Assembly: GCA_027366525.1 (NCBI GenBank)
Contig: DAHXKG010000006.1
Coordinates: 62,001-126,000, forward strand
Reading direction: 5' to 3'
Length of the DNA: 64,000 bases
Origin: a candidate division FCPU426 bacterium
GTDB lineage: Bacteria; Oederibacteriota; Muellerivitia; Muellerivitales; DAHXKG01
Both the position numbers and the translations under genes were made by a program. Positions 55,521 through 59,140 of this stretch are shown piece after piece. Each line of letters opens with the position of its first letter. Within the stretch, counting starts at the first letter, position 1. A model generated the notes under the pieces. The model worked only from the letters and a program-made list of their open reading frames with translations, was not told the origin of the DNA and made no database searches.

Positions 55521-56936
55521 ATGAAGCCCACAATTTTAATTGTTGATGATGAACCAGGAGTGCGCGAAGCCTTTCGATTAGCATTGCAAGATTTATATCA
55601 AATAACAATCACCGAGGATGTCAGATCAACATTTAGTGTTCTAAAATCAAAGACTTTTGATATTTGCTTATTAGATGTTATTTTGCCGGATGGATCAGGC
55701 ATAGATCTTCTCCAGCAAATTAAAACGAAAAAAAATCAGCTAGAAGTGGTTATGATTACCGCCTTGCAAAGTATGGATGTAGCTTTAGAAGCAATGAAGC
55801 TGGGTGCCTATGACTACATAACGAAGCCTTTTCAACTAGAAGATCTTTATCAAATTATTTGTCGTATTTTAAAGAAAAAAACTCTTGAAAGAGAAAATCA
55901 ATATTTAAAAGATGAGGTGTATAAAAATCAAAGTACACTTCGGTTATCGTCAAATAATTCCAGTCCAATCCGTACATTTCCGGATATATCAAAACTTGCG
56001 TTGCTTGATACATCGATTTTGATTTCAGGCGAAGTAGGTTCTCATAAAAAATGGATAGCTCAGAAAATTCATGAAATGTCGGGGCGAAAAGAATTTCCAT
56101 TCATAACACTGGATTGTTGTGATTTAAATGACGGAGAAAATGATATTGAGATATTTGGAGAAGAGCAAACATTTGAAAATCTTGAATCGCATTTACAAAT
56201 TGGGAAACTAGAGTTTGCCGATGGGGGAACACTATTTTTAAATCAAGTAGATCGATTATCGCTGGGATATCAAACCAAACTTTTTAGAGCACTCATGGAA
56301 AAGCAGATTTTTCGAATCGGCAGTGAAATTCCAGTTCGATTTGATTTGAGAATCATTGCATCTACATCTGTTGATATCGGAAATTTGGTTGCACAGCATC
56401 GTTTTGCTAAAGAGTTTTACCGGTTAATTCGAGATACGGAATTAAAAGTTATCCCTCTACGCGAACGGAAGGAAGATATTCCCATTTTGATAAACGAATT
56501 TATACGGTTGGCCAATGTTAAGTCGAAGATCCATGTCAAGTCAATTTCGGAAGAGGCCGTGAATATTTTAATGTGCTATGACTGGCCAGGGAATTGTGCC
56601 GAATTAGAAGCCGTGATTGAGCTTATGGTGATTTCATCACAGTCGGAGTATTTATCAGTTGAGGACTTACCCTTGGATATTTTGATTCATCAAATCAACC
56701 ATGCTCAAACGGAGGGGGAAGCGCGACTTTCACTGAAACGCATACGGAATCAATTTGAACGACAATATATTCGAAAAATTTTGGAACAAACTAAGGGCAA
56801 TCAAACGCGTGCTGCCAAAATTCTTGGACTCCACCGAAACACGTTAATTTGGAAATTAAACATGTTGAATTTGGTAGATGACTATAAAAACATTGTTCAG
56901 ATTCGAAGAAATTCCAAATATAATCTAGGTGATTGA
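55521..56936 (+). CDS. NtrC-like response regulator with degenerate AAA+ domain
   Basis: The 471-residue protein is REC-AAA+-Fis. The receiver looks functional (D9-D10, phosphoacceptor D52, K102). The ATPase domain (about 150-370) does not. Walker A reads GEVGSHKK (170-177) instead of GESGTGKE; Walker B has N241-Q242 where D-E is expected; the GAFTGA loop that contacts sigma-54 is missing (EIFGEEQ runs straight into TFENLE); and the arginine-finger region is altered. The C-terminal HTH (KGNQTRAAKILGLHRNTLIWKL, about 425-446) is intact. I infer a DNA-binding regulator that no longer activates sigma-54, comparable to HupR or the Rhodobacter NtrC type. It overlaps the kinase gene by 8 bp. Confidence 0.85.
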   Translation: MKPTILIVDDEPGVREAFRLALQDLYQITITEDVRSTFSVLKSKTFDICLLDVILPDGSGIDLLQQIKTKKNQLEVVMITALQSMDVALEAMKLGAYDYITKPFQLEDLYQIICRILKKKTLERENQYLKDEVYKNQSTLRLSSNNSSPIRTFPDISKLALLDTSILISGEVGSHKKWIAQKIHEMSGRKEFPFITLDCCDLNDGENDIEIFGEEQTFENLESHLQIGKLEFADGGTLFLNQVDRLSLGYQTKLFRALMEKQIFRIGSEIPVRFDLRIIASTSVDIGNLVAQHRFAKEFYRLIRDTELKVIPLRERKEDIPILINEFIRLANVKSKIHVKSISEEAVNILMCYDWPGNCAELEAVIELMVISSQSEYLSVEDLPLDILIHQINHAQTEGEARLSLKRIRNQFERQYIRKILEQTKGNQTRAAKILGLHRNTLIWKLNMLNLVDDYKNIVQIRRNSKYNLGD

Positions 56937-58083
56937 TTTGTCTAAAAAGAAAACAAGCCATGTGCAAGTATACCCTAATACCATAATAAATCGTCATACA
57001 CTCGATCTGATTTTGAAGTTCAGAAATATTTTTTCAAATAGCTGTACACCCAAAGAACAATCAGCTTTAGTGCGGCGATACTTTCCAAAATTTTTTCCAC
57101 ATCAAAAAATTTTTTTTTACGAACAGAATTTGAATCAATTATTGGAGAATCATAATATTCTTAAAAAATTTAAAATTGAAAAAAAGCTTCATTTATATTT
57201 AAATCAGCCAATTCCAACTTCAGATTGTGTTTTTTTATTGCTTGGGTTTGATAATGAAATTCGATTTTGCATAGAGATTAAATTAATGCAGCTATGTAAT
57301 CCGCAGGAAGTTATCTCTATGTTGGAATTTATCTCATCCCAAATTTTAGGGATATGGGAGATTGAAAAATGGAAAAAAAATTTTTGGGATGCTCAGTCCA
57401 GAGCATCAGTGGGCTATTTAACCTCTATTATTCTTCATGAAATAAAAAACCCATTATTTACTTTAAAACTTTTGGGCCAAACTTTTAAAATCAAAAAAAA
57501 TAATCCTAATTTTTTAGAATCCTTTGATCACCTGTTGAATCACACGACTACGTATATGGAAAATATTATTGTTCAATTTTCCAATTACGGGAAAAAAAAT
57601 TATTTTTCAAAAGTGGATTTTAATAAAATTCTACAACAAGTTTTAAATATGGTTCATCCATTATTTAAAAACAAAAACATTCAAGTGCAAGTTCGAACCC
57701 TCCCACTTCCCCTCATTGAAGGAAATGCTATAATTCTGGAAAGTCTAATCATGAATGTGCTGATCAATGCAGTTGAGGCGGTGAATAGCAAAGGCGGCAA
57801 GATCAAAATTGAGACATTGGTCTCAGCCAAAAATACTACATCATCTTGTAAATTGCCTGATAAAAGTCCGTCCATTATCTTTAGGGTTTCTAATAATGGA
57901 AAAACCATGATTCAAAATTATAATGCACGTATGGGAAGCAATAACGATGATAGAATTTTAAATTTTGGGTTAGGTTTATCTATTTGTCAGAAAGCAGTTG
58001 AACTTCATCGGGGTAAAATGAAAATACAGTCAACGGCATCTACGACTACATTTTTTTCAAAGTTGCCTGTCAAAATAGATTAG
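56929..58083 (+). CDS. soluble sensor histidine kinase with altered G1 box
   Basis: The 384-residue protein has no membrane segment. An N-terminal region (about 1-150) of unknown fold precedes the dimerisation helix with phospho-acceptor H170 (SIILHEIKNPLFTLK). The ATPase domain has the N box (NVLINAVEA, N276/N280) and G2 box (FGLGLSICQKAVELHRG), but the G1 box reads VSNNGKT (N322, T326) where D-x-G-x-G is expected, so ATP binding may be weak or absent. It overlaps the upstream regulator gene by 8 bp and is its natural partner. The start is GTG 56929; TTG 56938 is possible. Confidence 0.82.
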   Translation: MIDLSKKKTSHVQVYPNTIINRHTLDLILKFRNIFSNSCTPKEQSALVRRYFPKFFPHQKIFFYEQNLNQLLENHNILKKFKIEKKLHLYLNQPIPTSDCVFLLLGFDNEIRFCIEIKLMQLCNPQEVISMLEFISSQILGIWEIEKWKKNFWDAQSRASVGYLTSIILHEIKNPLFTLKLLGQTFKIKKNNPNFLESFDHLLNHTTTYMENIIVQFSNYGKKNYFSKVDFNKILQQVLNMVHPLFKNKNIQVQVRTLPLPLIEGNAIILESLIMNVLINAVEAVNSKGGKIKIETLVSAKNTTSSCKLPDKSPSIIFRVSNNGKTMIQNYNARMGSNNDDRILNFGLGLSICQKAVELHRGKMKIQSTASTTTFFSKLPVKID

Positions 58084-58135
58084 GCAGAAAGCAGTAGTGT
58101 CCCAATTTTAGATTTGATAGTTTTAGGAGGAAGCG

Positions 58136-58741
58136 ATGCGTGCAATTAATGCTTACCACCATAAGACGCATAAGATATTGATTGTCGAACCCAATGATAA
58201 TTTTTCAAAAGAACTTACTCTGATTTCAAATTCATACGGTCAGGTTACGGTAGTCCATGAGGCATCACTTATGTTTAAAGCGCTTGTTTCAAATTCATAT
58301 GATTTGGCATTAATTAATTCACTTATATATACTGAAAATGGGCCCGATCGTTTGAAAAATTTAAAAATGCTTCAGCCCCAAATGAAGCAAATAGAAATCT
58401 TAGTTTCCCCATCAGTATCCCAGATTGTGTGTTCTATGAAAGCTGGTGTTTCAGATGTTATATGGTTCACCATGCATCATTCATTAATCAAAAAAACTAT
58501 TTTTCAAAATCTTGGATTGCAATCATCGGTATTTCCATCCTTACCATTAATTTCAAGTCTGGTTACACTCGCATCAAAAAGTGTTTTTGATGAGTCCAAA
58601 TCATTAATTGATCAGAAAAAGGAGTTTCAAAGGTTGTTGGTAAATAGATTGGAAAAATTCATGAAAATAAAACGTAGCAAATTAGCAAGACTCATGGGTA
58701 TAAGTACACGCACTCTTCAGCGGCTTATTATTAAAAATTGA
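58136..58741 (+). CDS. pseudo-receiver protein with C-terminal helix-turn-helix
   Basis: The 201-residue protein resembles a response regulator receiver (ILIVEPNDNF at about 14-23, then DLALINSLIY), but the acidic pair is E18-P19 and the phospho-acceptor position is N61, so it should not be phosphorylated. The C-terminus (about 165-201) ends in KRSKLARLMGISTRTLQRL, a Fis-like HTH resembling that of the NtrC-like protein upstream. A strong AGGAGG precedes the ATG. It lies 52 bp after the kinase and probably belongs to the same unit. The call is by structure-like pattern; the role is unknown. Confidence 0.6.
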   Translation: MRAINAYHHKTHKILIVEPNDNFSKELTLISNSYGQVTVVHEASLMFKALVSNSYDLALINSLIYTENGPDRLKNLKMLQPQMKQIEILVSPSVSQIVCSMKAGVSDVIWFTMHHSLIKKTIFQNLGLQSSVFPSLPLISSLVTLASKSVFDESKSLIDQKKEFQRLLVNRLEKFMKIKRSKLARLMGISTRTLQRLIIKN

Positions 58742-58785
58742 TATCATCTGAATTTTAACGTTTAAAATAGATAAAAATACGAGTT

Positions 58786-58811
58786 TTGAACATAAAAATC
58801 CTTGCTAATAT
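58786..58811 (+). promoter_or_regulatory. possible promoter of the HU-type gene
   Basis: TTGAAC (58786-58791) and TAATAT (58806-58811) are separated by only 14 bp, but TGC just before the second box makes an extended -10 (TG-n-TAATAT), which can tolerate a poor -35. It would give a leader of about 47 nt before the GTG at 58865. Confidence 0.35.
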
Positions 58812-58864
58812 TAAGTTCGTCTTGTATAAGAAATGAGATGTATTTTAATCTTGGAGGTGGTCGG

Positions 58865-59140
58865 GTGACTAATAATGAATTGCTTGGGGTCTTATCTAGT
58901 GAAACTGGATTGAAAAAAAAAGAAGTAGATGCAGTTTTGCAATCACTGAGGAATACAGTTTATCAAACATTGAAAAAAGAGCTTAAAATTAAACTAAATG
59001 GTCTAGGTGTTTTTCAGCTTAAAGAAAGAAAAGCAAGGGTTGCTCGTAATCCCCGAACTGGAGAAATGGTTCAAGTCCCTGCTAAAAAGGTTATTAAGTT
59101 TAGGGTCTTGAAGGATTTAAAAGAAGCGGTTTTGTCCTGA
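58865..59140 (+). CDS. HU/IHF-family DNA-binding protein
   Basis: This is a small nucleoid-associated protein that bends DNA. From the GTG at 58865 (GGAGG at 58853-58857) it has 91 residues, the normal HU size; a longer frame from 58802 has no ribosome binding site. NELLGVLSSETGLKKKEVDAVL forms the helical start, LNGLGVFQLKERKARVARNPRTGE the beta arms with the conserved RNPRTG DNA-intercalating tip, and VIKFRVLKDLKEAV the end. It is monocistronic, closed by a strong terminator. Confidence 0.93.
   Translation: MTNNELLGVLSSETGLKKKEVDAVLQSLRNTVYQTLKKELKIKLNGLGVFQLKERKARVARNPRTGEMVQVPAKKVIKFRVLKDLKEAVLS

Follow-up and report, generated by a model that had tools for sequence, protein, structure and literature searches.

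NtrC-type regulators without a GAFTGA motif are already known, and the examples compared here mostly rely on working nucleotide sites. The NtrC proteins of R. capsulatus and Caulobacter and the VpsR protein of Vibrio cholerae are bEBPs of this kind, acting at sigma-70 promoters (PMC10274813). Both NtrC proteins consist of a receiver (REC), an AAA+ domain and a Fis-type HTH, with loop 1 deleted and the phospho-Asp conserved; ATP binding is needed by the former, and the Walker A and Walker B residues by the latter (PMC10274813). VpsR does not need ATP (PMC10274813). It reportedly does not require phosphorylation and senses c-di-GMP.

The locus described here lies in a 64,000-nucleotide stretch of DNA (the window) from a candidate division FCPU426 bacterium of the uncultured order Muellerivitales. 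Three colinear signalling ORFs on the + strand, all open and with short or overlapping junctions, encode an NtrC-like response regulator (RR), a histidine kinase (HK) and an atypical receiver protein (PR) (Table 1). The start codon of HK is GTG and overlaps the RR stop. A sequence-only reading of the window had described three intact, well-spaced frames, which is correct, and had held that each gene carries damaged catalytic or phosphorylation motifs. The latter is true of the RR AAA+ domain, the HK G1 box and the PR receiver, but the RR receiver is complete.

Table 1. Coordinates of the trio and its main features in the window
Feature	Position	Strand	Evidence
RR, NtrC-like response regulator, 471 aa: receiver, degenerate AAA+, HTH_8, additional C-terminal helix	55521..56936	+	Pfam, alignment, AlphaFold model, Foldseek
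RR receiver domain, phosphorylation residues D9/D10, D52, T80, K102 intact	55533..55859	+	Pfam, alignment
RR former Walker A, GEVGSHKK (Lys176 retained, Gly175 to His)	56028..56051	+	alignment
RR loop-1 region, expected place of GAFTGA (IFGEEQTFENLESHLQI)	56148..56199	+	alignment
RR former Walker B, LFLNQ (Asn241, Gln242)	56235..56249	+	alignment
RR HTH_8 (Fis-type) and conserved C-terminal tail helix	56703..56933	+	Pfam; G004/G007 substitution counts
HK, soluble histidine kinase, 384 aa, HisKA-like and HATPase_c	56929..58083	+	Pfam, alignment
PR, atypical receiver and Fis-like C-terminal HTH, 201 aa	58136..58741	+	alignment, predicted structure, hhalign

The RR resembles the two NtrC proteins in its domain order, its deleted loop 1 and its conserved phospho-Asp. 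However, its Walker A and Walker B motifs are broken, and its family is order-specific and accompanied by a PR partner. With VpsR it has in common the missing GAFTGA and, if our reading is right, action at sigma-70 promoters and independence of ATP, but the RR has a canonical receiver beside a kinase. Sequence comparison makes it reasonably likely that the trio is a phosphorylation-gated, ATP-independent, non-sigma-54 regulator encoded alongside its kinase and a Fis-type partner related to it.

Distribution and gene order

Genes for RR, HK and PR are present in all nine genomes examined of the order, and PR was not found in the 36 other genomes of the phylum at E 1e-15. Relatives of the RR within the order have 50-52% identity, those of G001 and G002 being more distant, and a scan of named genomes returned relatives at 31-38% identity only. 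The search for homologous trios found the order RR-HK-PR, with adjacent genes, in eight of the nine genomes (G000, which is the window genome, G001, G002, G003, G004, G006, G007 and G008, where the RR is cut by a contig end). The surroundings of the ogg-type locus are conserved and comprise ftsZ (in the relatives), a deacetylase, an amidase, a small membrane protein, ogg and RR. In G005 the trio is split over two loci, with a solitary RR gene flanked by ogg and the HU gene. HK and PR are absent from this ogg-RR-HU locus and are placed behind a methyltransferase cluster (L029:1-247, L030:6054-7862); in quick trees they group with those of G001/G002 and not with those of G004/G007. The favored reading takes the trio for an ancient, vertically retained two-component output module.

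Loss of the AAA+ motor in the response regulator

Pfam recognized REC, Sigma54_activat (E 3.6e-34), AAA lid and HTH_8 domains in the RR, which thus has the domain order of a sigma-54 activator (receiver, Sigma54_activat-type AAA+ and Fis HTH). Alignment against the NtrC consensus shows TFENLE at the GAFTGA position and no GAFTGA. The FRxDLxxR motif reads FAKEFYRL, the sensor-II Arg is replaced by Ala, and neither Walker A, Walker B nor the Arg fingers are intact. An RR without GAFTGA or proper Walker motifs had been reported from the sequence alone, and the same AAA+ losses were found in eight relatives. The GAFTGA loop is absent from all nine trio RRs of the order, and the catalytic Glu of Walker B is Gln in eight of them and Asp in G002. 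None of the seven readable f2 members has the Walker A Lys; the window RR retains it, but there the adjoining Gly is His. Most f2 members retain the first Arg of FRxDLxxR, and all have lost the second.

The window genome encodes RpoN and three other full-length bEBPs, of which two were read for motifs, both with intact GSFTGA and Walker motifs. Since eight relatives have the same AAA+ losses while these bEBPs are intact, the losses in the RR are more than chance. Loss of sigma-54 was rejected as their cause because RpoN and canonical bEBPs are present. All trio RRs group in a single clade (support 100/99), whose stem is long (0.57). Outside this clade, RR relatives in G009 (L034), G023 (L035), G020 (L036) and G015 (L037) combine GAFTSA or GSFTSA with a Walker B DD, one in G010 has GAFTSA and DE, and in all five genomes these proteins retain Walker A as well as the Arg fingers. 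By these alignments the erosion of the RR AAA+ domain is ancient, and the RR is unlikely to function as a normal sigma-54 activator. That the RR still acts on sigma-54, using a shortened loop and what nucleotide binding remains, would suit the recognizable Sigma54_activat domain, the presence of RpoN and the Lys kept in the window RR, but we consider it very improbable given a loop 1 that nowhere contains GAFTGA, the lost catalytic Glu and the missing Lys of the f2 members.

In a Foldseek search with the AlphaFold model of the RR, the best full-length structural match was Brucella NtrX (5m7p, 5m7n), with 28% identity, and VpsR (7v2b) was among the matches. Whole-chain TM-scores were low for the full RR and PR models, because domain orientation is uncertain in them. 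Brucella NtrX was crystallised with ATP/ADP, whereas the nucleotide motifs of the window RR are damaged.

Loop, Walker A and Walker B are thus all eroded and fixed in this state across the order, while the DNA-binding part is under strong constraint and relatives in the phylum keep the motor. The RR family and its motor-keeping relatives form a natural series on the purpose of the AAA+ domain after ATP burning ends.

Degenerate NtrC-like proteins outside the trio clade were also seen in Margulisbacteria/Saganbacteria (L078:101-1513, L079:3818-5209), so erosion of NtrC-type AAA+ domains probably arose more than once. In these proteins the GAFTGA stretch is replaced by LFGKGLGDN or LFGRGQGTS. 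Both genes adjoin a second NtrC-like gene, and the gene preceding the one in L079 is RpoN-like by eye.

Receiver, DNA-binding domain and selection

The RR receiver residues are intact in all eight readable members. Loss of loop 1 with a retained phospho-Asp, as found in the alignment, is the combination of the GAFTGA-less NtrC-type regulators that act with sigma-70. As the receiver is complete, a damaged phosphorylation motif cannot be ascribed to the RR.

Between G004 and G007, dN/dS is 0.106 for RR, 0.248 for HK and 0.128 for PR; these values come from this one close pair, dS being saturated between the relatives and the window. Five neighboring genes gave 0.064-0.176 for the same pair; the values of RR and PR are thus usual ones, and HK evolves somewhat faster. 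Within the RR, dN/dS was 0.083 for REC and 0.162 for AAA+, and the HTH with its tail had 0 nonsynonymous against 21 synonymous changes. The trio RR is under purifying selection in the relatives. A dN/dS near 1, which the sequence-only reading had named as the mark of recent decay, was not seen for this pair in any of the three genes, and recent pseudogenisation of the RR was rejected on these values and on the losses common to the whole order. The idea of a retained non-canonical module, put forward in the same reading, agrees with the conserved gene order, the order-wide loss of the RR ATP motifs and the purifying selection.

Histidine kinase

The window HK keeps H170, E171, N174, the N-box N280 and a GLGL G2 box. 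Its G1 box is altered, as noticed earlier, and reads NNGKT, with Asn for Asp and Thr for the second Gly. The F-box is also gone, which had been overlooked. The H-box His, the Glu, the N-box and G2 are retained in all nine members of the order. G1 is retained in most relatives, with Asn for Asp in the window, G002 and the G005 copy, and both G1 DxGxG and the F-box are intact in G003, G004, G007 and G008. Among the nine, the window HK has the most altered G1 and is the only one to have lost the F-box. Without the F-box and half of G1, it may fail to form phospho-His. Kinase erosion in this genome may extend beyond HK, as the receiver-kinase encoded in its methyltransferase cluster (L181:9086-10354) lacks the Pfam HATPase match that a second copy (L180:8174-9451) has. 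A GAF domain suspected by eye at the HK N-terminus had no Pfam match in any of the nine members.

The atypical receiver protein

In the window PR, Asn61 takes the place of the phospho-Asp, the acidic cluster reads E-P-N, and the switch Lys is missing. The protein therefore fails on the canonical receiver residues (acidic pair, phospho-Asp and switch Lys) and, with its Fis-like HTH, is rightly described as a pseudo-receiver with an HTH. The phospho-Asp is present in eight of the nine members of the order and replaced by Asn in the window only; the switch Lys is absent from all nine and the acidic pair is lost in three. To judge from these residues, the PR receiver is unlikely to be switched by phosphorylation of the ordinary kind. 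In hhalign comparisons the receivers of PR and RR were homologous (P 5e-13), and the PR C-terminus matched the Fis-type HTH of the RR (P = 1.2e-5). As both parts are homologous, mixed RR-PR dimers or joint DNA sites are possible, and so is the pairing of the two HTH proteins suggested by the sequence-only reading. As a separate observation, an NtrC-like gene in a Nitrospirota MAG is immediately followed by the gene of an orphan Fis-type HTH protein of 81 aa (L071:3732-3977).

Relatives with the same substitutions were thus found for the AAA+ losses of the RR, but the HK F-box loss and the PR change from Asp to Asn are confined to the window. Intact motifs in relatives, the other proposed mark of recent decay, occur in part for HK and PR and do not occur for the RR. 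Decay specific to this lineage, in which the RR is retained while the window HK and PR are under relaxed constraint and heading for loss in a smaller genome, has to be weighed here. The window genome has 2.02 Mb against 2.4-4.1 Mb elsewhere in the order. In FastTree phylogenies its terminal branches are 1.83 for HK (0.16-0.87 in the relatives) and 1.89 for PR (0.06-0.76), while that of the RR is 0.73 against 0.54-0.63 in G001/G002. The very long HK and PR branches leave room for relaxed constraint. However, the three ORFs are open despite very long divergence, the window PR retains its ribosome-binding site and the conserved pattern W110, A184, R192, T193 and R196, and HK keeps the residues named above. 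We therefore regard such decay as rather unlikely.

Predicted mode of action

A motif-less AAA+ domain that carries a complete receiver and a constrained HTH points to phosphorylation-gated DNA binding at ordinary promoters, in line with reports on NtrC proteins without GAFTGA (PMC10274813). In the reading that we favor, HK would most likely phosphorylate Asp52 of the RR, and phosphorylation would alter RR dimerisation or oligomerisation. The RR would then bind DNA through its Fis-type HTH and repress or activate promoters, presumably of the housekeeping sigma factor, and the AAA+ domain would be no more than a scaffold or ligand pocket that works without ATP. PR would be a second Fis-type DNA-binding protein that likely tunes the RR through putative hetero-dimers or common sites. 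Given the further drift of HK and PR in the window genome, another kinase may supply the phosphate there.

The sequence-only reading had proposed that binding events replaced phosphorylation or ATP turnover. Loss of ATP turnover stands for the RR, whose AAA+ motifs are broken in all members. Replacement of both activities throughout the module would also fit the defective PR receivers, but it is improbable with a complete RR receiver in every readable member, the HK phospho-acceptor in all members and its ATP-binding residues in most. Phosphorylation was probably not replaced in the trio; rather, the RR was retained after an ancient loss of its ATP motor.

TATAAT-like sequences were seen by eye upstream of RR in the relatives, which is compatible with a sigma-70 promoter. 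In the window, 33 promoter-like matches were found against 22 +/- 4.2 expected, about the level of the AT-rich background. Inspection of upstream regions by eye revealed no clear or convincing palindromic RR binding site. Several relatives have a conserved block, CCCTTTAAAAACGCAGAAA...TATAAAT (58741-58865 in the window), ahead of the HU gene that follows the trio.

Association with a methyltransferase cluster

In G001 and G002, which belong to two genera, a single cluster ends with the trio, directly after a methyltransferase (about 470 aa), a membrane hybrid kinase (898-905 aa) and a receiver-kinase (420 aa). HK and PR without RR follow the same cluster in G005, a third genus, and in the window genome the methyltransferase cluster and the trio are on different contigs. 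The methyltransferase is present in all nine genomes of the order and in none of the 36 other phylum genomes at E 1e-30. As it and PR are both order-wide, their co-occurrence is weak support by itself, and the common gene cluster is the stronger point. NCBIfam gave no family match for the methyltransferase. It has 39% identity over 98% with a methyltransferase encoded on a Paraburkholderia graminis plasmid, in a cluster that also contains a sensor kinase and receivers, and the kinase of that cluster has the same membrane domain as the hybrid kinase of the order (E 5e-24).

A methyltransferase, a membrane sensor kinase and a receiver-kinase in one cluster, as in G001 and G002, are the components of a Phc-type system. 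In the Ralstonia phcB-phcS-phcR-phcQ quorum sensing system, PhcB has 464-468 aa, which likens it by size to the 470-aa methyltransferase, and PhcR consists of a receiver and a kinase (PMC8578825). However, the hybrid kinase found here has a second HisKA-HATPase, and the output would be an NtrC-type RR instead of the LysR protein PhcA of Ralstonia. By this analogy the trio is a tentative candidate for the transcriptional output of a Phc-like methyl-ester quorum sensing system, a possible but doubtful role in which the methyltransferase would make the signal, the hybrid kinase would sense it, phosphate would pass to the ATP-dead RR and PR would modulate the response. If this link is true, a different type of output regulator would serve Phc-like signalling in a lineage of which little is known.
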